Virus record (IMG/VR): IMGVR_UViG_3300047321_000262
Location: 1-33,900 of that record
From: a virus
DNA length: 33,900 nucleotides
Strand: one strand, 5' to 3'
In this document: positions 1 to 33,496 of the stretch, piece after piece
Layout of the letters: each line of letters begins with the position of its first letter
Numbering within the stretch: the first letter of the stretch is position 1
The notes under the pieces: model-generated
Databases searched by the model: none
What the model was told of the DNA's origin: nothing
What the model saw: only the letters and a program-made list of their open reading frames with translations
Position numbers and translations under genes: made by a program

Positions 1-4
1 ACCG

Positions 5-175
5 ATGTCTGAGCCGAAGGTGAAGCTCACGCTCTGGGAGAAGGCCCGCATCGTCGCCATCGAGGCGCACGGCGTGAAGCGTGCCGCCGCTGGCATCGAG
101 AACCAGCCCGACATCGACCGCCGCGTCAACCGCGTCCGCGAGCAGGCCCGCAAGAGGGCCGCGCGCGGCGAGTAG
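5..175 (+). CDS. Small basic helical protein, DUF6257-like
   Basis: Encodes 56 residues from ATG at 5 to TAG at 173. The protein is charged and probably all helical, with a basic second half (VNRVREQARKRAAR). It resembles small Streptomyces proteins of the DUF6257 type that lie next to transfer genes of integrative elements; this is recognition from memory, not a search. It sits 86 bases upstream of the FtsK/TraB-like gene and on the same strand, so it probably belongs to the same operon. If the window is circular, the gene cut at the right edge would end at 21-23 and overlap this start by 19 bases. Function unknown. Confidence 0.7.
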   Translation: MSEPKVKLTLWEKARIVAIEAHGVKRAAAGIENQPDIDRRVNRVREQARKRAARGE

Positions 176-261: not shown

Positions 262-2373
262 ATGACGGACACCACGATCCAACTCCACAAGGACGCCCCC
301 CAGGACGCCCCCCAGGACGCCCCGGACGCCCCGATCCCCAAGGCGTCCTCCACCCGTCCCGAGGCGTCCCGACCGAAGCGCCGCGTCCGCATCGACCACC
401 TGCGCCGGGTCGTCGTCGAGACCCGCTCGAACCCCACCTACCGTTTCACCATCCGCCACGGCGCCTACATCGTCGGCGGCACCCGCGTACTCACCCGGCG
501 TACCTGGGACGCCCGCACGACCGCCCGGCACGAGCGGATGATGCGGATCGCCGAAGCCTCCGGCAACGAGCAGATCGCCCGCGACTGGGAGCAGCGCGCC
601 TACATCTTCCGGCAGTCCCGCCACCGCCGGCGGATGGAGCTGCTGCAGCTCGCCATCAACGCGCCGAAGGCCATCGCCATGGGCACCGTGGGCGGGGCGG
701 GCGTCCTGCTGACGCTCGGCATCATGCTGGCCTGGGCAAACCACGACGTCCACGACGTCCTTGTCCCACTCAAGGCCACCGTCTCGCTTGTGTCCTGGGT
801 CGCGTTCCTCGCCGGGGTCATTTGGGATCCGCTGCTGGTCGCCCTGCCGTGGATCGCCCTCGCCGGGGTGTGGGCCGTCGGTCGGCACCGTCAGACCGCC
901 CCGACCTGGGCACTGCCCGTCGACGGCGACGAGCGGGACGTCGTGCCGGATGAGAACGCCATCCTGCGGGCCCTGGGCAAGCTCGGCATCGCCCCGCTGA
1001 ACGCGGCCCTCAAGGAGGGCTGGAAGCCCCGCTGGGTGCAGCCGTCCACCCGTTCCGGGAACGGGTGGCACGCGCAGCTGCAGCTCCCGGAGGGCGTGCC
1101 CGTCGAGATGATCGCCGACAAGAAGCAGATCCTCGCGCACAACCTGATGCGCAAGCCGATCGAGGTGTGGCCGACCGAGCCGCGCGACCAGGCCGGCGTG
1201 CTGGACCTGTGGGTCGCCGACCCTGGTGTACTCACCAAGCCGGTTCCGTCCTGGCCGCTCCTGACAGAGGGAACGACCGACTTCTTCAGGGGCGTGCCCG
1301 TCGCACTCAACGCGCGCGGCGAGCAGGTCATCGGGCGGCTGATGGCTGCGAACTACCTGATCGCCGGGATCATGGGTTCGGGTAAGTCGTCGCTGGTCGT
1401 CGCCCTGCTCCTCGGCGCGATGCTCGACCCGCTGGTCGAGATCGACGTGCACGTCCTGGCGTACAACAGCGACTACGACCCGATGCGGCCCCGCCTGCGG
1501 AGCCTGGTCAAGGGCGACGACACCGAGCACGTGGTTGCGGCCATGGACACGCTGCGGTCCCTGGCCGGTGAAGTGTCCCGCCGGGGGCAGGAGCTGGAAC
1601 GCCTCGGCACGGACACCAAGGTCACTCGCGAGATGGCGGAACGCGACCCGTCCATGCGGCCTCGGATCGTCGTGTTCGACGAGGTCCACGAGCTGTTCGG
1701 GCACCCGGAGCACGGCAAGGAAGCCAAGGAACTGGCGCTGAAGGTCACCAAGAAGGCCAGGAAAACGGCCATCATGCTGCTGTGGATCACCCCGGATGCA
1801 GATGCGGCGAGCCTGCCGCGCGGGATCTCCAAGACTGTGTCCCACCGGGTCGCGTTCGCGATCAACGACCACCAGGGCAACGACGCGATCCTCGGCACCG
1901 GCATGCACAAGAACGGGTACTCGGCGACAACTCTCGTCGCAGGTGAAGACGTCGGCACCGCCATGGCCGCGGGCTTCGGGAAGACTCCCGGGCTGATCCG
2001 CTCCTACTACGTGCGGAAAGAGGCAGGCATCGACGAGGTGACGCCGGTCGTCGAGCGGGCCATGGCGCTGTACAAGGGCACCGGGCCGGTCGACGCGCCG
2101 GCGTTCGCTCCGGTCGACCACCTCGCCGACATCGCGGCCGTCCTCGGTCACGAGACGAAGATGCTCACGATGGACGTCCTGCGCGGCCTCCAGGACCTCA
2201 ACCCGGTCGCCTACGGCAGCTGGTCTTTCCGGAATCTGCGGGGAGTTCTCGACGACGCCGGGCACGGCGAGTACAAGACCGGCGGCAAGATGCACGTCAG
2301 TCTCGACCGGATCCTCGAAGCCATCGCGGGCCGCGAAGACGACCTCGACGACGAGGGAGGCGACGAAGACTAA
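262..2373 (+). CDS. FtsK/SpoIIIE-type DNA translocase, TraB-like
   Basis: A 703-residue membrane-anchored DNA-pumping ATPase. The N-terminus is a low-complexity DAPQ repeat and a basic stretch, followed by hydrophobic segments at about 137-159 and 173-207. The FtsK motor domain has Walker A at 369-377 (GIMGSGKSS) and Walker B at 469-474 (IVVFDE). The last 70 residues (about 634-690) look like a winged helix, then an acidic tail. This layout and length match the Streptomyces conjugative translocase TraB, which moves double-stranded DNA between hyphae and reads 8-bp repeats through its C-terminal winged helix. True FtsK is usually longer, with four membrane segments. A cluster of octamer repeats begins inside its 3' end, as the clt site does next to traB. 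The TraB role is inferred; a phage-specific segregation or packaging role is the alternative. ATG at 262 was chosen because it begins just after the hairpin; its ribosome site (gaggcagg) is weak. Confidence 0.85.
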   Translation: MTDTTIQLHKDAPQDAPQDAPDAPIPKASSTRPEASRPKRRVRIDHLRRVVVETRSNPTYRFTIRHGAYIVGGTRVLTRRTWDARTTARHERMMRIAEASGNEQIARDWEQRAYIFRQSRHRRRMELLQLAINAPKAIAMGTVGGAGVLLTLGIMLAWANHDVHDVLVPLKATVSLVSWVAFLAGVIWDPLLVALPWIALAGVWAVGRHRQTAPTWALPVDGDERDVVPDENAILRALGKLGIAPLNAALKEGWKPRWVQPSTRSGNGWHAQLQLPEGVPVEMIADKKQILAHNLMRKPIEVWPTEPRDQAGVLDLWVADPGVLTKPVPSWPLLTEGTTDFFRGVPVALNARGEQVIGRLMAANYLIAGIMGSGKSSLVVALLLGAMLDPLVEIDVHVLAYNSDYDPMRPRLRSLVKGDDTEHVVAAMDTLRSLAGEVSRRGQELERLGTDTKVTREMAERDPSMRPRIVVFDEVHELFGHPEHGKEAKELALKVTKKARKTAIMLLWITPDADAASLPRGISKTVSHRVAFAINDHQGNDAILGTGMHKNGYSATTLVAGEDVGTAMAAGFGKTPGLIRSYYVRKEAGIDEVTPVVERAMALYKGTGPVDAPAFAPVDHLADIAAVLGHETKMLTMDVLRGLQDLNPVAYGSWSFRNLRGVLDDAGHGEYKTGGKMHVSLDRILEAIAGREDDLDDEGGDED

Positions 2374-2517
2374 GGGAGATCTCCCTACCTGCCTCCCTGT
2401 ACTGCCTCCCTCCGCGCGACCTGCGGAAACGGCCGTCGAGGGAGGCAAGGGAGCCAAGGGAGGCGGGCAGCAGGAAACGGGAAACAGGCACGTCATCATC
2501 CCCTCCGGCGCCTCCCT
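2354..2517. repeat. Octamer cluster AGGGAGGC, clt-like
   Basis: Six exact copies of AGGGAGGC or its complement lie in 164 bases: plus orientation at 2354, 2439 and 2457; minus orientation at 2391, 2404 and 2510. A one-mismatch copy (AGGGAGCC) at 2448 makes a run of three units spaced exactly 9 bp (2439, 2448, 2457). A perfect 14-bp palindrome AGGGAGATCTCCCT covers 2373-2386 and starts in the TAA stop of the translocase. In Streptomyces plasmids the TraB recognition repeats (8 bp) lie in clt at the 3' end of traB; position and unit length agree. Single copies also occur elsewhere (5536, about 10486, 22057), two of them as ribosome sites, so it is the clustering that matters. Confidence 0.75.
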
Positions 2518-3736: not shown

Positions 3737-4012
3737 ATGGGCCCCGTCGAGAAGGCCGTCCGTGATGACGTCGAGCAGCTCGGCGACCTGGCCGGCATCG
3801 AGCCATCCCTGTCTGAGATGGCGTACTCGCTGGCCCGCCGGATCGACACCGCGGCGACCGGGCAGTGCGACACGTGCGGGGAGGCGGTGGCCGTCGAGGA
3901 CAAGCTGCTCCCCCAGTTGAACCGCGAGCTCCGTCAGACGCTCGCCCAGCTCCTGGAGGGACGGGCGCCCGACGATGACGACGACCTCGGAGACCTGGCG
4001 TCCCCCGACTGA
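3737..4012 (+). CDS. terS: Terminase small subunit (probable)
   Basis: A 91-residue acidic protein starting MGPVEKAVRDDVEQLG, with a helical body, a CDTC pair near the middle and a poly-Asp C-terminus. Its size and the phrases 'VEKAVRDDVEQLG' and 'LARRIDTAA' resemble small terminase subunits of actinobacterial siphoviruses, which recognise the packaging site and regulate the large subunit. It lies directly upstream of, and overlaps by 38 bases, the large terminase gene. ATG at 3737 follows a good ribosome site (ggaaggggg at 3724-3732). Confidence 0.75.
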   Translation: MGPVEKAVRDDVEQLGDLAGIEPSLSEMAYSLARRIDTAATGQCDTCGEAVAVEDKLLPQLNRELRQTLAQLLEGRAPDDDDDLGDLASPD

Positions 4013-5537
4013 ATTCGCCGAGGGCCTCCGGGAGCGGTACGGGCTGGAGTGCCCGCCGCTGTGGGGTACGCCGCGCCATCCAGACCGGCCGTCGCTGGGG
4101 CCGAAGCTGTGGAAGGTCATGGCGAAGCTCGGCGCTCCGCCGATGCCTTGGCAGAAGTACGTCAGTGACGTCGCCCTGGAGATCGATCCTGAGACGGGAC
4201 TGTTCGCTCACCGCGAGGTCGGCATCAGCGTCTCGCGGCAGCAGGGCAAGACGGAGCTGTGCCTCGGTGCCCAGGTGCACCGTGCGCTCGCCTGGCAGCA
4301 GCAGAACATCGTGTACGCGGCACAGACCCGCGGCATGGCGCGGCAGCGGTGGGAGGACGAGTTCTGGGAGAAGATCTCGGGCTCGGACCTGGCCAGGATG
4401 GCGCGCATCCGGAAGTCGAACGGCAACGAGGCGATCCTGTGGGGCCGGACGCGCTCCAAGATGGGCATCACTGCGAACACCGAGAAGGCCGGCCACGGAC
4501 CGCCGCTGGACATGGGGTTCATCGACGAGGCGTTCGCGCACGAGGACGACCGCCTGGAGCAGGCGTTCAGCCCGGCCATGCTCACGCGGAAGATGGCCCA
4601 GCTGTGGTGGGCGTCCGCGGGCGGCACCACCAAGTCGGTGTGGCTGAACAAGAAGCGCGAGGCCGGCCGGAAGCTCATCGAGGCGTTGTTCGCCGCCCTC
4701 GCCGAGGACGCTGCCGCTTCCCGTCCCCGAGCGGCGTACTTCGAATGGTTCGCGCCCGAGGACATGCCGCGTGATGACCCGGCGACCTGGTACGCGACGC
4801 TGCCCGCACTCGGACACACGGTCACCGTGGACGTGATCCGCGCCGAGCTGGAGAAGATGGACCCGGCCGAGTTCGACCGGGCGTTCCTGAACCGGACACG
4901 GAAGCCGACACCGCCCACGGACCCGAACGTGCCCAAGGCCAAGTGGCCGGGCCTGGTCGACGCCGACAGCAAGCCGGTGCCGGACAGCGTGGCGCTCGCC
5001 ATCGACGTCTCGCAGGACCGCAGCTACGCATCCATCGCGGCCGCGTCCAAGCGGGCCGACGGACGCGTGCACGTCGAGGTCGTCGCCCGCCGACCAGGCA
5101 CGGACTGGCTGGTGCCCGCCGTGGTGAGGCTGCGCGACCTGTGGAAGCCGGTTGCTGTGGCCATCGCGTCGTCCGGGGCGCCGGCCGGATCGCTCATCGA
5201 CGACCTGATCGCCGCGGGCATCGACGTACCGAAGGACAAGGAGCATCCGGAGCGCGGCGACCTGGCCGTGATGCGTAACGGGGACATCGTCGAGGCGTGC
5301 GGACAGATGGCCGACGCCATGAACCAGGGCACCGTCCGGCACACCGACCAGGTGCCGCTCACCGCCGCGGTAAACGGCGCCAGGACGCGCCGGAACGGCG
5401 ACGCCTGGACGCTCGACCGCACCAGCTCGCTGACCGAGATCAGCCCGTTCTGCGCCGTCACCTTCGCCCGCTGGGCGCTGCTCATCCGGGGCCCGCAGGT
5501 CGAAGAGGACTACGACGTCAGCGATTCGTTCGCGTAG
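3975..5537 (+). CDS. terL: Terminase large subunit
   Basis: A 520-residue packaging motor and headful/cos nuclease. The ATPase domain shows a Walker A variant SRQQGKT (87-93) and Walker B MGFIDEAF with Asp184-Glu185. The C-terminal RNase H-like nuclease begins with the acidic motif LAIDVSQDRSY (Asp344). Length and order fit the family. It docks at the portal and uses ATP to fill the prohead. The start overlaps the small subunit gene, suggesting translational coupling. Confidence 0.95.
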   Translation: MTTTSETWRPPTEFAEGLRERYGLECPPLWGTPRHPDRPSLGPKLWKVMAKLGAPPMPWQKYVSDVALEIDPETGLFAHREVGISVSRQQGKTELCLGAQVHRALAWQQQNIVYAAQTRGMARQRWEDEFWEKISGSDLARMARIRKSNGNEAILWGRTRSKMGITANTEKAGHGPPLDMGFIDEAFAHEDDRLEQAFSPAMLTRKMAQLWWASAGGTTKSVWLNKKREAGRKLIEALFAALAEDAAASRPRAAYFEWFAPEDMPRDDPATWYATLPALGHTVTVDVIRAELEKMDPAEFDRAFLNRTRKPTPPTDPNVPKAKWPGLVDADSKPVPDSVALAIDVSQDRSYASIAAASKRADGRVHVEVVARRPGTDWLVPAVVRLRDLWKPVAVAIASSGAPAGSLIDDLIAAGIDVPKDKEHPERGDLAVMRNGDIVEACGQMADAMNQGTVRHTDQVPLTAAVNGARTRRNGDAWTLDRTSSLTEISPFCAVTFARWALLIRGPQVEEDYDVSDSFA

Positions 5538-5546
5538 GGAGGCCGT

Positions 5547-6767
5547 ATGGGCATCTGGGACAGGATGCGACGCACCGTCACCCGCGACGCGAACATCGTC
5601 ACCGCCGAGGACCTGCTGAACCTGGCCCGCGAGGGCCGCCTCGGCGGCAAGAGCGTGCACGTCACCAACGACACGGCGCTGCGGCATTCCGCGGTGTGGG
5701 CGGCGTTGCGGCTGCGGGCCGACCTGGTGTCGATGATGCCGATCGACGTGTACCGCAAGGTGCAGGGCCTGCAGGTGGAGGTGCCCAAGCCGCCCGTCCT
5801 GGTCACCCCGGGCGGGCAGGAGGTCGGCATCAAGGAATGGATGTACTCCACCGAGTTCGACCTGGACCGCGCCGGGAACTGCTTCGGCCTGATCACAGAA
5901 CGCACGGGCGTGATCGGCCCGGACGGGCGCGGCCTGCCCGGCCGTATCGACCTCGTGGAACTGAGCGAAGTCACCGTCCGCGCCAACGGTTCACAGATCA
6001 AGAAGTTCAAGATCTGCGGCACCGAGTACGACCCGTGGGAGGTGTGGCACGAGAAGCAGTACACCGTCGCCGGATTCCCGCTCGGCCTGTCCCCGGTGGC
6101 GTATGCGGCGTGGACGATCGAGGAGTCCTTGAACGCACAGCAGTTCGCCCGGGACTGGTTCGGGGCCGGCATCATCCCGTCGGGCACGCTGAAGAACGTC
6201 AGCAAGACGATCAACCAGAAGAACGCGCGGGAAGCCAAGGAGGCGTTCCGGGCGGCTGTCTCCAACGGGGACGTGTTCGTGCACGGCTCGGACTGGGAGT
6301 ACAAGCCGATCCAGGCCGTGGCGCAGCAGGCGCAGTTCATTGAAGCCCGGCAGTTCGGCATGGGGGACATCGCCCGGTTCTTCGGCGTACCCAGCGACCT
6401 GATCGACGCTGCGGTGTCGGGCAGCAGCGTCACCTACGCCAACATCAGCCAGCGCAACCTGCAGTTCCTCATCATGCACCTGGGGCCGGCCGTGGGCCGC
6501 CGCGAGGACGCATTCAGCCGGAAGCTGGTGTCCAATCCGCGTTACGTGAAGCTCAACACGGACGCGCTCCTGCGGATGGACCCTGCGGCTCGTGCTCAGA
6601 CGCTGAAGACCCAGATCGATTCGCGCACGCTGGCGCCGTCCGAGGCGCGGGCCCTCGAGGAGCGGCCGCCGTTCACCGAGGAGCAGCTCGCCGAGTTCGA
6701 CAGGCTGTTCGGCTCGCGTTCCGTTCCTGCCCAGCCCACGACCGCCGTACCGGGAGCTACGTCATGA
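5547..6767 (+). CDS. Portal protein, HK97 family
   Basis: A 406-residue protein with the HK97-type portal signature: an N-terminal region reading ALRHSAVWAALRLRADLVSMMP, a central GNCFGLI strand, WHEKQY, and the segment GMGDIARFFGVPSDLI followed by YANISQRNLQFL near the C-terminus. Twelve copies form the ring at one capsid vertex through which DNA is packaged and to which the tail joins. The ribosome site AGGGAGG precedes ATG 5547 by a short spacer. Its stop overlaps the protease start (ATGA). Confidence 0.95.
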   Translation: MGIWDRMRRTVTRDANIVTAEDLLNLAREGRLGGKSVHVTNDTALRHSAVWAALRLRADLVSMMPIDVYRKVQGLQVEVPKPPVLVTPGGQEVGIKEWMYSTEFDLDRAGNCFGLITERTGVIGPDGRGLPGRIDLVELSEVTVRANGSQIKKFKICGTEYDPWEVWHEKQYTVAGFPLGLSPVAYAAWTIEESLNAQQFARDWFGAGIIPSGTLKNVSKTINQKNAREAKEAFRAAVSNGDVFVHGSDWEYKPIQAVAQQAQFIEARQFGMGDIARFFGVPSDLIDAAVSGSSVTYANISQRNLQFLIMHLGPAVGRREDAFSRKLVSNPRYVKLNTDALLRMDPAARAQTLKTQIDSRTLAPSEARALEERPPFTEEQLAEFDRLFGSRSVPAQPTTAVPGATS

Positions 6768-7435
6768 CCGCACCCACGCTCGCCGCCGCCGCGGCGGCCC
6801 GAGCCCAGAATGTGCGCCAGCGCGCCGACCGGCCCTCGCAGCGCCGTTGTGCCGAGCAGACCGGATCCCGCGCCACGGTGCGCGCCGCTCTGTCCGGCGT
6901 GCAGGTCCGCGAGGCTGCGGACACGGGCGCGCTGGAGCTCCTCGGCCACGCATCGGTGTACGAGCAGGCCTACGAGATGTGGGACATGTTCGGCCCGTAT
7001 ACCGAGGTCGTCACCGAGGGCGCGGGCTCCGATTCCCTGGCCCGCGCGGACCTCGACGTGCCGCTGGTCCTGGGGCACGACCAGCTGCGCCGCCTGGCCC
7101 GCACGACCACCGGGACGCTGTTCCTCGCCGAGGACGCCAACGGTCTGTCCGTGCGTGCCCCGCAGCTGGACCCGGCGGACTATGACGTCGCGTACATCGC
7201 GCCGAAGCTGCGCTCGGGCCTGATCGACGAGATGTCGTTCGCGTTCCGCATCGACTCGGGCCAGTGGTCCCCGGACTACACCGAGTACCGCATCAACCGG
7301 TACGACATCCACCGCGGCGACGTCGCGATCGTCGGCTACGGCGCCAACCCGTACACCGGTGCGAGCCTGCGGCAGCCCGCGGGCGCTTCGCCTGGCCGGG
7401 CCCGCGCGCTCCTGGAGATCGCGCTCGCCCGCTGA
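6764..7435 (+). CDS. Prohead maturation protease, HK97 family
   Basis: A 223-residue serine protease that cleaves the scaffold domain of the capsid protein during maturation. The catalytic His is at about 105 (LGHDQ) and Ser at 158 (DEMSFAF), with the conserved RVDSG-like strand here as RIDSG. The first 45 residues are Ala/Arg-rich and unstructured, a usual self-cleaved region. The gene overlaps the portal stop by 4 bases, so the two are probably translated together. Confidence 0.92.
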   Translation: MTAPTLAAAAAARAQNVRQRADRPSQRRCAEQTGSRATVRAALSGVQVREAADTGALELLGHASVYEQAYEMWDMFGPYTEVVTEGAGSDSLARADLDVPLVLGHDQLRRLARTTTGTLFLAEDANGLSVRAPQLDPADYDVAYIAPKLRSGLIDEMSFAFRIDSGQWSPDYTEYRINRYDIHRGDVAIVGYGANPYTGASLRQPAGASPGRARALLEIALAR

Positions 7436-7573: not shown

Positions 7574-8965
7574 ATGACTCTTGCCGACCTGATCGCCCAG
7601 GCGCGCACCGCGCTGGAGACGGCGATCACCACCCGCCAGCAGGAGCAGGACGCGCTGGTCGCGCTGCGCTCCGACCCCAACCTCACCGAGGACGCCGTCA
7701 CGGCGCGGGTCGCCACCCGCGACGCTGCGGACGCCGAGGTCACCCGGCGTCAGGGCGCCCTCGAGGAGCTGCTCGCCGAGCAGGCCCGCGAGGCCGAGAT
7801 CGCCGCCCTGTCCGCGCGCACCACCCCGGCGGCCAACCGGGCGCCGGCCTACGACCAGGTCGCCCGCGTCGGCCAGGAAGAGCGCACCTACCGGCCCGAC
7901 CAGGACCGGCGCGGCCAGAACTTCGAGCGCGACGTGGCGGCGGCGTTCCTGGGCGACTACGAGGCCCGTGACCGGCTGGCCCGGCACATGTCCGAAGAGC
8001 GCGTCGAGCGCGGCGACCAGCTGGAGCGTGCGGCCGGTACGGGCGCGTTCTCGGGCCTGGTGGTGCCGCAGTACCTCACCGACCTGTACGCCCCGGCCGC
8101 CGCGGCCCGACGGCCCTTCGCCGACGCGATCCGCCGCCACGATCTGCCCGCGCAGGGCATGACCGTGAACATCTCGCGGATCACCACGCCGACGAGCACG
8201 GCGCTGCAGGCTTCGGAGAACACTGCGGTGTCCGCGCAGGACATCGACGACACGCTGCTCACCATCCCGGTGCAGACGATCGCGGGCCAGCAGACGCTGT
8301 CCCGGCAGTCGATCGAGCGCGGCGCGGGTGTGGAGCCGATCGTCCTGGACGACCTGTTCCGCCGCTACGCGACCACGCTGGACTCGACGCTGCTCAACCA
8401 GGCAACGACCGGGCTGGCCGCCTCGGCGACCGCCATCACGTACACCTCGGGCAGCCCGACGGTGGTCGGGGCGTACCCGCAGGTCATCGCTGGTCTGGCT
8501 GGCGTCGAGGGCGCGATGCTCGACATGGCGTCCGGCGAGAACATCGTCGTGATGCACTCGCGGCGCTGGTACTGGCTCCAGAACGGCCTGTCGTCGACGT
8601 GGCCGCTCATCAGCCAGCCGGGCATCGCCGCGCAGATGGGTGGCACCAACCTCGGCGCCTCCTACGGCTCCGGCGTGCGTGGTGTCCTGCCGAACGGCAC
8701 TCCGGTGATCGTCGACAACAACGTTGTGACGAACCTCGGCGGGGCCACCAACCAGGACGAGATCTACGTCGCCGACCGCAACGAGTGCCACCTGTGGGAG
8801 GACCCGTCCGCCCCGATGTACATCAGGGCGGAACAGCCGGCCGTGGCCAGCCTCGGCGTGCTGATGGTCGTGTACGGCTACGCCGCGTACACGCACTCCC
8901 GGTACGCGCAGGCCCAGAAGATCACGGGCACCGGCCTGGTCGCGCCCGCCTTCACCGGCGCCTGA
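7574..8965 (+). CDS. Major capsid protein, HK97 fold, with scaffold domain
   Basis: A 463-residue capsid subunit. Residues 1 to about 85 are coiled coil (ADLIAQARTALETAITTRQQ onward), the delta scaffold domain that the protease upstream would remove; then a linker; then the HK97 fold from about 150 (AAGTGAFSGLVVPQYL) through the E-loop and P-domain to the C-terminal strand (ASLGVLMVVYGYAAY). No separate scaffold gene is present, in agreement with a fused one. Start at ATG 7574 with a clear ribosome site. Confidence 0.94.
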   Translation: MTLADLIAQARTALETAITTRQQEQDALVALRSDPNLTEDAVTARVATRDAADAEVTRRQGALEELLAEQAREAEIAALSARTTPAANRAPAYDQVARVGQEERTYRPDQDRRGQNFERDVAAAFLGDYEARDRLARHMSEERVERGDQLERAAGTGAFSGLVVPQYLTDLYAPAAAARRPFADAIRRHDLPAQGMTVNISRITTPTSTALQASENTAVSAQDIDDTLLTIPVQTIAGQQTLSRQSIERGAGVEPIVLDDLFRRYATTLDSTLLNQATTGLAASATAITYTSGSPTVVGAYPQVIAGLAGVEGAMLDMASGENIVVMHSRRWYWLQNGLSSTWPLISQPGIAAQMGGTNLGASYGSGVRGVLPNGTPVIVDNNVVTNLGGATNQDEIYVADRNECHLWEDPSAPMYIRAEQPAVASLGVLMVVYGYAAYTHSRYAQAQKITGTGLVAPAFTGA

Positions 8966-23420: not shown

Positions 23421-24914
23421 ATGAAGCCCACTCCAACAGCGGTCAGCCGGACGCGCGCGGTCATCTACGTGAGGATCAGCCAGGACCGGACGGGCGCCGG
23501 CCTCGGCGTCGACCGGCAGCGCGAGGACTGCGAAGCCCTCGCGGAACGTAACGACTGGGACGTCGTCGAGGTGTACGTCGACAACGACGTGAGCGCCTAC
23601 AAGAAGGGCAGCAAGCGCAAGGACTACCAGCGCATGCTCGCCGACCTCGATCAGGGCACGGCCACCGTGGTCATCGCCTGGCACACCGACCGCCTGCACC
23701 GCTCGCCCACCGAACTGGAGGGCTACATCGACCTGTGCGACAAGCGCGGCGTGTCGACTCACACCGTGCAGGCCGGGAAGCTCGATCTCGCCACGTCGTC
23801 CGGGCGCATGGTCGCGCGGATGCTCGGCGCGGTCGCCCGCCATGAATCGGAACACAAGGGTGAGCGCGTGGCCCGCGCCCGGCAGCAGAGGGCCATGGCC
23901 GGGCAGTGGGCTGGAGGCGTCCGGCCGTTCGGGTGGGGCGTGCCCACCGACGAGACCCGCAAGAAGGTCGATCGGAAGACGAGCGAAGAGACCGTGGTGC
24001 CCGTCCTCGACATGAGCAAGGCCGTACCCGAGGAGGCCGCCGCGGTCCTGCACTGGACGGACACTCTCCTGTCCGGCGGGTCCATCAGGGGGTGCGTGAA
24101 GTGGGCGGCGGGCAAGGGCCTCACGTCGACGCGCGGCAACCCGATCACGCACACCGACGTGCGCGAGATGCTCATGCGCCACAGGAACGCCGGGATCGCG
24201 GTCTACAGGGGCGAGGAGGTCGGCCGCGGGAAGTGGGAGCCGATCGTCCCCGAGGAGAAGTTCAGGGCCGTCGTAGCGGTCCTGAAGGACCCGTCACGGA
24301 CGTCGAACGCGGGCGCCCAGCCCAAGTGGGTCGGCTCGCTGCTCCACCTGTGCGGCCGGGACGCCTGCGGCGAGGGCATGACCGTCACCCAGTCCGGCGG
24401 CCGCCAGTACCCGAGTTACAGGTGCCCGACCGGGCACGGTGGCGGCCGCAGGGCGGAGATCGTGGACCAGTACGTCGAGGACACGATCGTCGAGCGGCTG
24501 TCCCGGGACGACGCGGAGGACCTGCTGCTGCCCGGGCCGGACGACGTGGACGTGGCCGGGCTGCAGGCGGAGAGCGAGCGGATCCGCCGGCGCATGACGG
24601 ACCTGGCGGGCCTGTTCGGTGCGGGGCAGTTGGAGCTGGGGCCGTTCACGGAGGGCATGGACACGGCCCGCGGCCAGCTGGAGGGCGTCACCAAGCAGCT
24701 GGCACGTGCGGCGACGATCGATCCGCTCGTCGGCCTGGTGGGCGCGCCGGACGTGCGGAAGGCGTGGCGGGCACTGGAGCTGGAGCGGCAGCGCAACGTG
24801 CTGCGGGCCCTCGTGCAGGTCACGCTGACCACACCCCGTCCCGGGCGGATGCCCGACGGCGGGTACTTCGACTACGAGGCCGTGAAGTTCGAGTGGAAGC
24901 GAGGCAACGCATAA
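23421..24914 (+). CDS. int: Large serine integrase
   Basis: A 497-residue serine recombinase that inserts phage DNA by attP x attB recombination. The resolvase domain has the catalytic motif YVRIS with Ser20 and the HTDRLHRS motif (Asp90, Arg91, Arg94). A recombinase domain follows (about 180-300), then a zinc ribbon (LHLCGRDACG and YRCPTGHG, about 310-340), a coiled coil (about 370-430) and a C-terminal tail. It is about the length of R4- and TP901-type integrases and shorter than phiC31's. ATG 23421 is adjacent to cggagg, so spacing is tight; the message may be weakly translated or start differently. Confidence 0.95.
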   Translation: MKPTPTAVSRTRAVIYVRISQDRTGAGLGVDRQREDCEALAERNDWDVVEVYVDNDVSAYKKGSKRKDYQRMLADLDQGTATVVIAWHTDRLHRSPTELEGYIDLCDKRGVSTHTVQAGKLDLATSSGRMVARMLGAVARHESEHKGERVARARQQRAMAGQWAGGVRPFGWGVPTDETRKKVDRKTSEETVVPVLDMSKAVPEEAAAVLHWTDTLLSGGSIRGCVKWAAGKGLTSTRGNPITHTDVREMLMRHRNAGIAVYRGEEVGRGKWEPIVPEEKFRAVVAVLKDPSRTSNAGAQPKWVGSLLHLCGRDACGEGMTVTQSGGRQYPSYRCPTGHGGGRRAEIVDQYVEDTIVERLSRDDAEDLLLPGPDDVDVAGLQAESERIRRRMTDLAGLFGAGQLELGPFTEGMDTARGQLEGVTKQLARAATIDPLVGLVGAPDVRKAWRALELERQRNVLRALVQVTLTTPRPGRMPDGGYFDYEAVKFEWKRGNA

Positions 24915-27459: not shown

Positions 27460-28320
27460 GTGACCACAGAAGCAATCGCGTTCAACCGGCTCGCTGACCT
27501 ACTCAGCGGCATGGGCGAACGCACCCGCTACCAGGGCGGAGCCCTGAGAGTGCGCGGCATCTGCCACGACGGTGACGCCCCCGGCACCGTCGCCATCCGC
27601 CGCGGCAACAACGGCGTCGTCATCCACTGCCACAAGTGCAACGACAACCAAGGGTTCCTCGATGCCATCGGCTGGACCACGGCCGACCTGTTCGACGAGC
27701 CGCTGGAGCGGCAGCGCGACCGGCCCGCCGACGACCTGTGGATCCCCTGCCGCGACCGCGGACACAAGCGCGTCGCCCAGTACCTGTACCGCGACGAGAA
27801 CGGGCGCGTCGTCCACGGCGTCACCCGCTGCGACGCAAAGTGCTTTGCCCAGTGGCGGCCCGACGACAGCACCAAGTCCGGGCGCCGCTGGAGCCTGAAC
27901 GACAAGGACGGCAACCGGCTCGTCAGGATCGTGCCGTTCCGGCTGCCCGAGCTCCTGAAGGCCAAGACCGAGGACCGGGTCGCGTTCATCTGCGAGGGCG
28001 AGAAAGACGCCCTGGCCCTCGTCGACCACGGCCTCGTCGCCACCTGCAACGCGGGCGGGGCGGGCAAGTGGACCGCCGAACACGCCCAGTTCCTCGAAGG
28101 CATGGACGTCACCGTCGTCGCCGACCGCGACGAGCCCGGCCAACGGCACGCACGCCACGTTGTGGAGACCCTTCGCGGCGTCGCCCGGTCCGTCTACGTG
28201 GTTCAGGCGCTCACCGGCAAGGACGCTGCCGACCACTTCGCAGCCGGCCACAAGGACTCGCAGTTCGTTCAGGTATGGGCCCCCGTCCCGTACCCCGGCG
28301 ACCCGGCGGTGTACGCGTGA
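27460..28320 (+). CDS. Toprim primase-like protein
   Basis: A 286-residue protein with an N-terminal zinc-binding part (GICHDGD, then IHCHKCNDNQGF) and a Toprim domain with FICEGEKDALAL and VVADRDEPGQ, the acidic motif set of DnaG-type primases. It would make RNA primers for phage replication. GTG 27460 is chosen because the preceding frame includes the hairpin region. Coupled to the helicase gene by GTGA. Confidence 0.88.
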   Translation: MTTEAIAFNRLADLLSGMGERTRYQGGALRVRGICHDGDAPGTVAIRRGNNGVVIHCHKCNDNQGFLDAIGWTTADLFDEPLERQRDRPADDLWIPCRDRGHKRVAQYLYRDENGRVVHGVTRCDAKCFAQWRPDDSTKSGRRWSLNDKDGNRLVRIVPFRLPELLKAKTEDRVAFICEGEKDALALVDHGLVATCNAGGAGKWTAEHAQFLEGMDVTVVADRDEPGQRHARHVVETLRGVARSVYVVQALTGKDAADHFAAGHKDSQFVQVWAPVPYPGDPAVYA

Positions 28321-29486
28321 ACGACGAGCCCAACTGGCAGCCCAACGTGGACGCCGAGAAGGAGGAGGAGACCGCCAGGCGGCTCGTCCTCACCCCGGCC
28401 TCGACGATCCGCATGCGTCGGGTGCGCTGGCTGTGGGACACGACCCCAAGCGGAGAGCCGCCCACCTCGCACGGGCGGATCCCGCTCAACTCCCTCGCCA
28501 TCGCGGCCGGAGGCCCCGGACTGGGCAAGTCCCAGTACGCGGTGTGGCTGACCGCACGCATCACCACGGGCACGCTGCCGGGCGAGCTACGCGGCAAGCC
28601 GCGCGGCGTGATCTACGCAGCGACCGAGGACTCGTGGGCGTACACCATCGCCCCCCGACTGGTGGCCGCAGGCGCCGACATGGACCTCGTCTTCCGTGTC
28701 GACGTGCGGGACGACGAGGAGATGCACGCCCGGCTGACCCTGCCCAAGGACATCTCCCTCATGGGCAAGGCCGCCGAGGCGTACAGCGTCGGCCTGCTGG
28801 TCGCCGACCCGCTGCTCTCGATGATCGACGCCAGCATCAACGACTACCGGGCGGCTGAAGTCCGCTCCGCCCTGGAGCCGTTGGTGGCGGCCGCGGACAG
28901 GCATCACTTCACCATCCTCGGCCTGGCCCACTTCACGAAGGCAGGCGGCGCGGACCCTCTTAGCCGCATCGCAGGATCCGGCGCGTTCGGCCAGCTCATC
29001 CGCTGCCTCATCGCGTTCGCCAAACAGGAAGGAGAAGACGGCGTGGACGAGTTCGTCATGAGTCTGGAGAAGAACAACCTCGGCCGCCTCGGGCTGCCGT
29101 CCCACAGCTACGAGATCCAGCCCGTCACCGTCGACACCGACGAAGGCCCCACCTACGTCTCACGGTTTGTCCTCGGCCCCGAGTCCACGACGTCTGTCCG
29201 GGACGTCATGCGGGCCGAGACGAACGGCGACGCGGGCGGCTCGGGCAGCGAGGTGGCCGAGTGGCTGCAGGGCTGGCTCACAGACCTCGGCGGCTCGGAC
29301 GAGGCGCGCGAGATCAAGAAGGCCGCCAAGAAGGAGAGCTTCAGCGAGTCGGCCGTCGACCGCGCCAAGAAGAAGCTCGGCATCAAGTCCAAGCAGCAGG
29401 GATTCGGCCGCGACCGGACGTCGCACTGGTACCTGCCGGAAGCGTGGGAACGAGAGGTCGTCGCCGACCTCCCCCGTACAGCCTGA
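28317..29486 (+). CDS. RecA-fold replicative helicase / RepA-like ATPase
   Basis: A 389-residue protein. Walker A GGPGLGKS (65-72) and Walker B LLVADPLL (Asp164), with AHFTKAGGADP in the motor core, match the AAA_25/RepA-type hexameric helicases of plasmids and phages. The C-terminal 90 residues look like a winged helix (EAREIKKAAKKESFSESAVD), suitable for origin binding. The iteron cluster starts 7 bases after its stop. Primase plus helicase plus iterons suggests a complete origin unit. Confidence 0.85.
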   Translation: MNDEPNWQPNVDAEKEEETARRLVLTPASTIRMRRVRWLWDTTPSGEPPTSHGRIPLNSLAIAAGGPGLGKSQYAVWLTARITTGTLPGELRGKPRGVIYAATEDSWAYTIAPRLVAAGADMDLVFRVDVRDDEEMHARLTLPKDISLMGKAAEAYSVGLLVADPLLSMIDASINDYRAAEVRSALEPLVAAADRHHFTILGLAHFTKAGGADPLSRIAGSGAFGQLIRCLIAFAKQEGEDGVDEFVMSLEKNNLGRLGLPSHSYEIQPVTVDTDEGPTYVSRFVLGPESTTSVRDVMRAETNGDAGGSGSEVAEWLQGWLTDLGGSDEAREIKKAAKKESFSESAVDRAKKKLGIKSKQQGFGRDRTSHWYLPEAWEREVVADLPRTA

Positions 29487-32119: not shown

Positions 32120-32334
32120 GCACCTCCTACGACCCGCTGCACGGCCCGGACGAGGAGCCCCCGTTCCCGGCGTCCCTCGACATCGAGCTGAAGCTGACCC
32201 GCGACTACCTCGACAAGGTCGCCACCGCCAACATCCACGACCACACCGCGATGCTGAAGGCCGCGACCGGCCTCAACTACCGGATCCGCTCCCTCGTCGC
32301 CGCCCTCGACGCCGAACGGGGTGAGCGCCGGTGA
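32116..32334 (+). CDS. Small helical protein
   Basis: A 72-residue protein; ATG overlaps the previous TGA. A helical core (SLDIELKLTRDYLDKVATAN, then LKAATGLNYRIRSLVAALDA). Not recognised; found in a coupled run with putative transfer genes. Confidence 0.65.
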   Translation: MSTSYDPLHGPDEEPPFPASLDIELKLTRDYLDKVATANIHDHTAMLKAATGLNYRIRSLVAALDAERGERR

Positions 32335-32711
32335 GCACCGAGCCCCGTACCGTCCAGGTCAGCATCCTCGTCACCAAGTCGCTGGAGATCGACGAACCCG
32401 ACTGGTGCACCGGACACCGCGACGACCGCGCCCAGTTCCGGCCCGACCTCACCCACAACGGGCCCGAGATCGCCGCCAGCTTCGAGACGCGCCTCGGCGC
32501 CGTCGACTACCTGCGCGCCTGGATCTCGCACGCGCCCTACGCCGAGCTGACGGCCGAGCTGCTGCCCGTCATCGCCGTCGAGATCGACGCCGAAGTCGTA
32601 TCCCTCGACCCGGCCGGCCTCCGCGCGTTCACCGCCACCACCCGCGCCCACCTCGACGCCCTCGACCGGCTCGCTGACGAGGCCGAGCACATCCGCGGTG
32701 AAGCCCGATGA
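32331..32711 (+). CDS. DUF6907-like protein
   Basis: A 126-residue protein from GTG 32331. The core DEPDWCTGHRDDRAQFRPD and LTHNGPE matches the pattern of DUF6907 proteins (PxWCxGH, then HxGPE), common in Streptomyces elements. A C-terminal helix follows (LRAFTATTRAHLDALDRLAD). Function unknown; it may bind metal through Cys/His. Coupled to the DUF2637 gene. Confidence 0.75.
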   Translation: MSTEPRTVQVSILVTKSLEIDEPDWCTGHRDDRAQFRPDLTHNGPEIAASFETRLGAVDYLRAWISHAPYAELTAELLPVIAVEIDAEVVSLDPAGLRAFTATTRAHLDALDRLADEAEHIRGEAR

Positions 32712-33496
32712 GCCGCCCCAACGCCCGCGACGGCCTCGCCGTCGGCGCCGCAGTCGTCACCGTCCTGCTCACCGCCGCCGCGTTCTGGCTGTCCTACGAA
32801 CACCTTCACGACATCGCCAGCGGCAACGGACTCGGCGGCGCCCGCGCCTGGGCCTGGCCCGCGACCGTCGACCTGTTCATCGTCGCCGGGGAGCTGCTCA
32901 TGCTCCGGGCGTCACTCGGCCGGCGCGGCATGGACTGGTGGGCCGTCGCCCTCGCCGCCTTCGGATCCCTCGGCTCCATCGCCCTCAACGTGGCTGGGGT
33001 CGGGTACGGGGCGGCCCCCATGGAGTACGTCGTGGCCGCCGTACCACCCTCCGCGGCCCTCGTCGCGTTCGGCGCCCTCATGCGGCAGATCCATGAACGG
33101 CTGGCCCAGGACGCCCAGGACGCGCCCGCGTCCCCGGCCGTCCCGAGCGTCCCGCCCGCCCGTGAGGTCGTCCCGCCCGGCGTCCGCCTCCTGCCGATCA
33201 CGGCCCGGCCACAGCCCACCGTGACCCTCGAACGCGAGGACGCGCGGGACGCCACCGGGACGCCCGAACTCCCGCCCGGGACAGACCAGGACGCCGAGGA
33301 CGCCGACGACGGGCCGCGTCCCGAGCCGCCTCTCATGACGACCGCCCAGGTCGCCGAGCACTACGGCGTCGACCCGTCCACCGTCCGCAACTGGGTGGCG
33401 TCAGGACGCCTGCTCGTCTTCACCAAGGACGGCAGGGGACGCAACCTCTTCCACCGCGAGCAGATGAACGCGCCCTACGTGGGGGTGGGCTCATGA
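32708..33496 (+). CDS. DUF2637 membrane protein fused to an HTH domain (Spd-like)
   Basis: A 262-residue protein. Residues 1-135 hold four membrane spans typical of DUF2637 (AVVTVLLTAAAFWLSYEHLH, then ATVDLFIVAGELLMLRASLG). Residues 140-205 are a Pro/Asp/Ala-rich linker. The C-terminus (about 212-258) is an HTH (MTTAQVAEHYGVDPSTVRNW) of the MerR/excisionase type. DUF2637 proteins are encoded beside TraB in Streptomyces integrative conjugative elements and are regarded as spread (Spd) proteins. The HTH would let a membrane protein hold DNA. The role is inferred from family context. Confidence 0.85.
   Translation: MSRPNARDGLAVGAAVVTVLLTAAAFWLSYEHLHDIASGNGLGGARAWAWPATVDLFIVAGELLMLRASLGRRGMDWWAVALAAFGSLGSIALNVAGVGYGAAPMEYVVAAVPPSAALVAFGALMRQIHERLAQDAQDAPASPAVPSVPPAREVVPPGVRLLPITARPQPTVTLEREDARDATGTPELPPGTDQDAEDADDGPRPEPPLMTTAQVAEHYGVDPSTVRNWVASGRLLVFTKDGRGRNLFHREQMNAPYVGVGS

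Follow-up and report, generated by a model that had tools for sequence, protein, structure and literature searches.

A putative TraB/clt conjugation module in the genome of a temperate tailed Streptomyces phage

Phages are generally classed apart from conjugative elements, which use a TraB-type pump and its docking site, clt, to carry double-stranded DNA from hypha to hypha. In chromosomal FtsK/SpoIIIE systems, a winged helix at the C-terminus generally reads octamers (KOPS/SRS). The TraB/clt plasmids pSVH1, pIJ101, pJV1, and pWTY27 encode an FtsK-type membrane motor with a C-terminal winged-helix region, and a short motif is repeated from the 3' end of traB into the intergenic region. The clt of pWTY27 spans 159 bp in addition to the final 16 bp of traA and has 7-bp repeats that were protected by TraA in a footprint (PMC3583192). 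According to the summaries in two citing papers (PMC3583192, PMC4170104), the winged helix reads the 8-bp TRS of pSVH1 through its helix alpha-3. Actinomycete integrative and conjugative elements (AICEs) are defined by Int, one of RepSA, RepAM, or Prim-Pol, and Tra (Ghinet 2011, PMC3218068); their archetype, pSAM2, had no described clt motif (PMC9513070). The locus described here has the membrane motor, a predicted winged-helix-like C-terminal region, and the run of repeats in common with the TraB/clt plasmids; unlike theirs, it lies on a tailed phage, and its octamers are arranged head-to-head around a core. Searches of open-licence PMC papers found no earlier report of TraB/clt on Streptomyces phages.

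The window, the whole stretch of DNA analyzed, is a single 33.9-kb metagenomic viral record (IMGVR_UViG_3300047321_000262, positions 1–33,900). Its GC content is 69%, which corrects an earlier figure of approximately 72%, and no RNA families or tRNAs were found in it. In order along the plus strand, the window carries a DUF6257 gene (5–175), an FtsK/SpoIIIE-type gene (262–2373), a cluster of AGGGAGGC octamers (2354–2517), a gene for a 66-aa MerR/Xis-like HTH protein (2538–2738), an HNH gene, and the genes for the terminase large subunit (3975–5537), portal protein (5547–6767), prohead protease (6764–7435), major capsid protein (7574–8965), and tail. Regulators, a large serine integrase (23421–24914), replication genes with Toprim primase and AAA_25 helicase domains (27460–29486), a DUF6907 gene (32331–32711), and a gene for a DUF2637 protein with a C-terminal HTH (32708–33496) follow. 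Terminase, portal, protease, major capsid protein, and integrase, the hallmarks of a tailed temperate phage (Caudoviricetes), are all present. The window is a genome of the temperate siphophage type, and its host group is soil Streptomyces. The DUF6257 gene lies just upstream of the FtsK/SpoIIIE-type gene, as in plasmid NZ_CP108827 (spdB ... DUF6257-traB). The DUF6907 gene is part of a transfer neighborhood shared with other elements, and the DUF2637 protein is a candidate Spd-like helper.

The first ~160 bp of the window are nearly identical to those of L005, a record from the same assembly. Therefore, the window start is an assembly break, and a physical genome end or cos at position 1 was ruled out. 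Record IMGVR_UViG_3300047321_000087 and window positions 1–160 have the same starting base and nearly identical sequences within one metagenome; two contigs with the same start in one metagenome indicate that the sample contains several TraB phages related to one another.

The ORF at 262–2373 is a real gene of 703 aa, and profile matches, relatives, motor fold, and dN/dS mark its product as a TraB-like dsDNA translocase with an FtsK fold. Residues 361–466 match Pfam FtsK_SpoIIIE (E 4e-5; 23.6 bits, just below the cut-off of 24), and the protein matches PHROG 1358 (FtsK/SpoIIIE-like) with an E value of 1.7e-13. The RecA motor (residues ~225–606) contains Walker A (GIMGSGKSS) and Walker B (RIVVFDE) motifs, and its predicted structure matches that of FtsK (2iut) with a Z score of 30.1. 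The membrane segments (~138–194) correspond to hydropathy peaks at 138–156, 166–184, and 176–194, where the model places long helices with low confidence. The winged-helix-like C-terminal domain (~619–695) was modeled as helix-strand-helix-helix-strand-helix with a pLDDT of 77. Its matches to solved structures are weak, with Foldseek E values above 0.4 and a top Z score of 7; several of them are winged helices, and the best rows, at Z 5–7 with no E below 0.4, also include EF-hand and forkhead domains. The rows listed by this fold search did not include FtsK gamma. The first-pass annotation had described an FtsK-motor gene with membrane segments and a winged-helix-like C-terminus, and the ORF, the Pfam and PHROG matches, the hydropathy profile, and the model agree with it.

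The closest relatives of the protein are TraB-like proteins of mobile elements. There are 44 plasmid relatives, 38 of them from Streptomyces and including traB of pSVH1, the product of which has been studied biochemically, although the window and pSVH1 proteins are only ~27% identical over half the protein. Relatives in chromosomal elements belong to AICEs and prophages of Streptomyces and Pseudonocardiales, and others were found in viral contigs. Among 50,697 phage records, a tblastn search with the window TraB recovered no relative; the TraB of phage L106 had no isolated-phage relative, and the L096 TraB brought up nothing closer than distant FtsK-like proteins, from Karimac-type and other phages. 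Chromosomal FtsK/SpoIIIE with KOPS/SRS shares the motor fold with the window protein. However, in the window protein no gamma-domain model matched at E ≤ 0.1, and the octamers form one cluster instead of a polar, genome-wide distribution. The relatives and this octamer distribution argue against a chromosomal FtsK/KOPS system, which was rejected. The refuting condition set earlier, nearest kin in chromosomal FtsK with KOPS/gamma, was put to the test, and the hits were TraB-like genes of mobile elements and plasmids.

FtsK-type motors on phage genomes are also known from cluster J mycobacteriophages and Karimac-type Streptomyces phages, neither of which was recovered as a relative of the window TraB among the same phage records; their proteins resemble it only distantly. 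Unlike the window protein, the cluster J FtsK-like proteins have no membrane part; they resemble mycobacterial FtsK, and their role is unclear (PMC3706429). The Karimac FtsK-like gene, unlike that of the window, is not followed by repeats. In Karimac, which represents a group of large lytic Streptomyces phages, the product of L145:1346–3157 combines membrane segments with a C-terminal end that looks, by eye, like that of pSVH1 TraB.

The clt-like site (2354–2517) overlaps the final 20 bp of traB and contains six exact copies of AGGGAGGC and one degenerate copy. Six exact octamers in both orientations, after and partly in the gene, had been noted before, and they were located as follows. The first (2354–2361, plus strand) lies within the coding end of traB. 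It is followed by a 14-bp palindrome, AGGGAGATCTCCCT (2373–2386), also recognized earlier, which takes the imperfect form GGGAGTTCTCCC in relatives. Two inverted octamers (2391–2398 and 2404–2411, minus strand) are separated from the direct octamers by a conserved core, GACCTGCGGAAAC (2418–2430, plus strand). The direct octamers form a tandem triplet (2439–2464, plus strand), the 9-bp spacing of which is real as previously described; only the outer two copies (2439 and 2457) are exact, whereas the middle copy (2448) reads AGGGAGCC and has one mismatch. The outer octamer (2510–2517, minus strand) is kept even where the HTH gene is absent. The three stray copies reported elsewhere in the window are located at 5536, 10485, and 22057, bringing the total to nine in 33.9 kb, six of them in one cluster. 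The octamer is rare at random, as had been assumed: chance predicts 2.1 copies over the full 33.9 kb, and six exact copies occur within 164 bp. When the window was simulated 150 times with an order-2 Markov model, no octamer, whatever its sequence, exceeded four copies per 170 bp. The clustering is not due to chance.

Relatives keep the order of the site, which runs from the palindrome through a pair of inverted octamers, the core GACCTGCNNAAA, and the direct octamers to the outer octamer. At least four copies of a 7-mer within 160 bp were found at 72 of 109 distinct sites, a density reached by 1.6% of windows drawn at random and by 5.2% of the ends of other genes; in this count, ~14% of the relatives had no repeat above two copies. 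The core GACCTGCNNAAA follows 57 of 111 traB genes (46 of 55 in the AGGGAGGC class) and 2.7% of other gene ends. We know of no description of this core in the middle of clt-like sites. In the pSVH1 traB region, TRS octamers occur at the same place, and the core GACCTGCNNAAA adjoins them, appearing beside the TRS as GACCTGCGCAAAC; the octamer itself is GACCCGGA in pSVH1 and AGGGAGGC in the window. The window site has the geometry of the published clt sites of pWTY27 and pSVH1.

AICEs (Ghinet 2011, Choufa 2022) resemble the window in their TraB motor, which is up to 99% identical, the octamer site, the integrase, and the DUF2637/DUF6907 neighborhood. One AICE-like element (L029/L044) even has both replication domains, Toprim and AAA_25. 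Four Streptomyces elements (L021, L022, L026, and L027) have motors 93–99% identical to that of the window and the same repeats after traB, and no portal gene was found anywhere in their genomes; the site also follows traB in further Streptomyces elements with portal-free genomes. In Pseudonocardiales AICEs, the site is partly degraded and is followed by primase, rep, xis, and tyrosine integrase genes. Integrase and replication genes were confirmed in L029/L044, L036, L021/L042, and L047. Since the gene 3' of the site varies among the elements, the site belongs to traB. Unlike the AICEs, which lack terminase, portal, protease, and capsid genes, the window has a full phage structural module. 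The AICE definition admits tyrosine and serine integrases, and the window encodes the latter; its two scanned replication genes are of the Toprim and AAA_25 types and not RepSA, RepAM/DUF3631, or Prim-Pol. Having Int and Tra together with this replication pair, the window was not filed as an AICE. The AICE-like Streptomyces elements L021 and L029 have no portal gene near traB, and each encodes a large protein of the tape-measure type that includes an NlpC/P60 stretch (L021:17513–21769 and L029:16382–20911) and matches PHROG tail families at E < 1e-100. On a conjugative element, such a protein may belong to a phage tail or may serve conjugation as a cell-wall hydrolase.

Octamers of other types occupy the corresponding position next to other traB genes, namely the GGGGAGGC, TCAGTGAC, CCCGTCAC, GGGTGGAT, GCTAGCGG, and TAACTC types. 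Across 40 homologs, repeat similarity correlated with winged-helix identity (rho 0.81) more strongly than with motor identity (0.36), values uncorrected for shared ancestry. The partial correlations were 0.59 for the winged helix and 0.18 for the motor, and none of 2000 permutations, which likewise ignore shared ancestry, reached 0.59. Natural swaps point in the same direction. L038 has a motor 82% identical to that of the window, a winged helix only 35% identical, and a different octamer, whereas L010, L011, and L053 have motors 22–25% identical, similar winged helices, and the same octamer. A YK[TS]-wing was paired with GGGAGGC in 53 of 59 cases, a DGY-wing with AGTGA in 8 of 10, and a GN-wing with GTTAG in 14 of 21, with one cross-assignment; these three classes were defined post hoc, after inspection of the data, and the unbiased test is the 40-homolog correlation. 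Octamer identity thus tracks the C-terminal winged-helix domain of TraB, and neither the motor nor the 66-aa HTH gene. Its presence without phage head genes and the tracking of the TraB C-terminal domain indicate that the site behaves as a clt/TRS site.

On the sequence evidence, the TraB/clt identity of the locus is near certain. We consider it very probable that the gene encodes a TraB-type dsDNA conjugation translocase which, together with its clt site of TRS octamers, constitutes one module of a temperate tailed Streptomyces phage and is common to AICEs. The TraB-like kin, the site in elements without head genes, the octamer that tracks the C-terminal domain, and the tailed-phage genes support the first-pass proposal of a conjugation-type transfer module on a phage.

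A working role in transfer is likely, and the alternative of a relic, in which traB-clt was gained by recombination with an AICE and is no longer used for transfer, is unlikely. Mosaicism fits such an origin, as do the nearly identical AICE and phage versions. Head genes downstream differ among TraB phages, and the upstream module is common to them. Three related long records (G001–G003) carry integrase, replication, DUF6907/DUF2637-like, and small membrane genes, the FtsK gene, octamers, HTH gene, and structural genes, with similar upstream and divergent structural modules. G001 (L023) is a prophage of Streptomyces sp. WAC 04229. Another of them, G002 (L014 and L015), repeats its start exactly over 123 bp at its end and looks complete and circular, although it is classed as linear in the database; a terminal repeat of this kind, as in a complete circular assembly, indicates that the FtsK gene is part of the phage and not a chimeric join. 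However, the motor dN/dS of 0.03–0.14 against eight relatives indicates strong purifying selection on the gene, and the match between octamer and winged helix is maintained within phages. The module also recurs in dozens of viral contigs. A second IMG/VR scan yielded 76 viral loci with TraB, and a portal is also encoded in 27 of 49 further, longer TraB viral records tested; some of the other TraB records may be AICEs labeled viral by the database, and these numbers are therefore not a phage count. About half of the portal-bearing records place the portal 4–12 kb after traB, a layout similar to that of the window. At the end of traB, one 7-mer occurs three or more times in 24 of the 27.

It is also quite improbable that the motor serves segregation or partition, keeping an excised or replicating circle inherited along the multi-compartment hypha with no cell-to-cell transfer. 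The FtsK motor fold would suit this function, and in Streptomyces plasmids intramycelial spreading and stability are difficult to tell apart (PMC4170104). Against it, the octamers are concentrated at one site with no KOPS-like polar spread, the chromosomal FtsK gamma domain was not detected, and family members of known function are conjugation proteins.

The repeats might instead be a packaging start (pac/cos) or an operator of the adjacent 66-aa protein, acting as a small terminase or regulator. The HTH gene does lie directly after the repeats, ahead of HNH and terminase, and MerR-like folds occur in small terminases (lambda gpNu1). However, the site is retained by elements that lack the HTH gene and the head genes. 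Furthermore, the HTH proteins of phages L106 and L009 are 79–84% identical to that of the window, while their octamers are AGTGA-type, which argues that the HTH protein is not the octamer reader. It was rejected as the binder of the repeats, being absent from some sites and not covarying with the octamer, and the pac or operator function is very unlikely. The HTH gene, found 3' of the site in phage-type elements and missing from AICE-type elements, is a candidate small terminase, excision factor, or late regulator. Least probable of all are replication iterons: in Pseudonocardiales AICEs, the site is flanked by traB on one side and primase-polymerase/rep genes on the other, but the same octamer accompanies unlike replication genes (Toprim/AAA_25 in the window, DUF3631 in L036, and D5-like in L021) and changes along with the TraB winged helix.

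We propose a transfer pathway based on the TraB/clt reading of the module. The serine integrase would excise and circularize the prophage, and the circle would replicate. The TraB winged helix would bind the AGGGAGGC octamers, placed head-to-head around the conserved core, and the motor would assemble there as a membrane hexamer, pumping the circle of dsDNA through septa or points of contact between hyphae. The upstream DUF2637 and DUF6257 genes may assist as Spd-like helpers, and the head and tail genes would be retained for ordinary infection. If loading resembles that of FtsK, octamers that point outward from the core could send motors off in both directions, which is speculative. Octamer binding, hexamer loading, pumping direction, the helper role, and transfer itself are all steps that we infer.

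The comparative set adds a core element common to the sites and candidate clt sites for AICEs. It also makes TraB specificity directly testable through natural joint swaps of winged helix and octamer. More broadly, it seems reasonably probable that a widespread class of temperate tailed phages infecting filamentous actinobacteria is conjugative in addition to forming virions, with TraB and a phage-borne clt moving dsDNA between hyphae, the module being exchanged with AICEs, and a winged-helix/octamer code setting transfer specificity. Such phages may spread by conjugation besides infection. If this is true, a tailed phage with a complete TraB/clt would have two horizontal routes and could colonize the mycelium without lysis.
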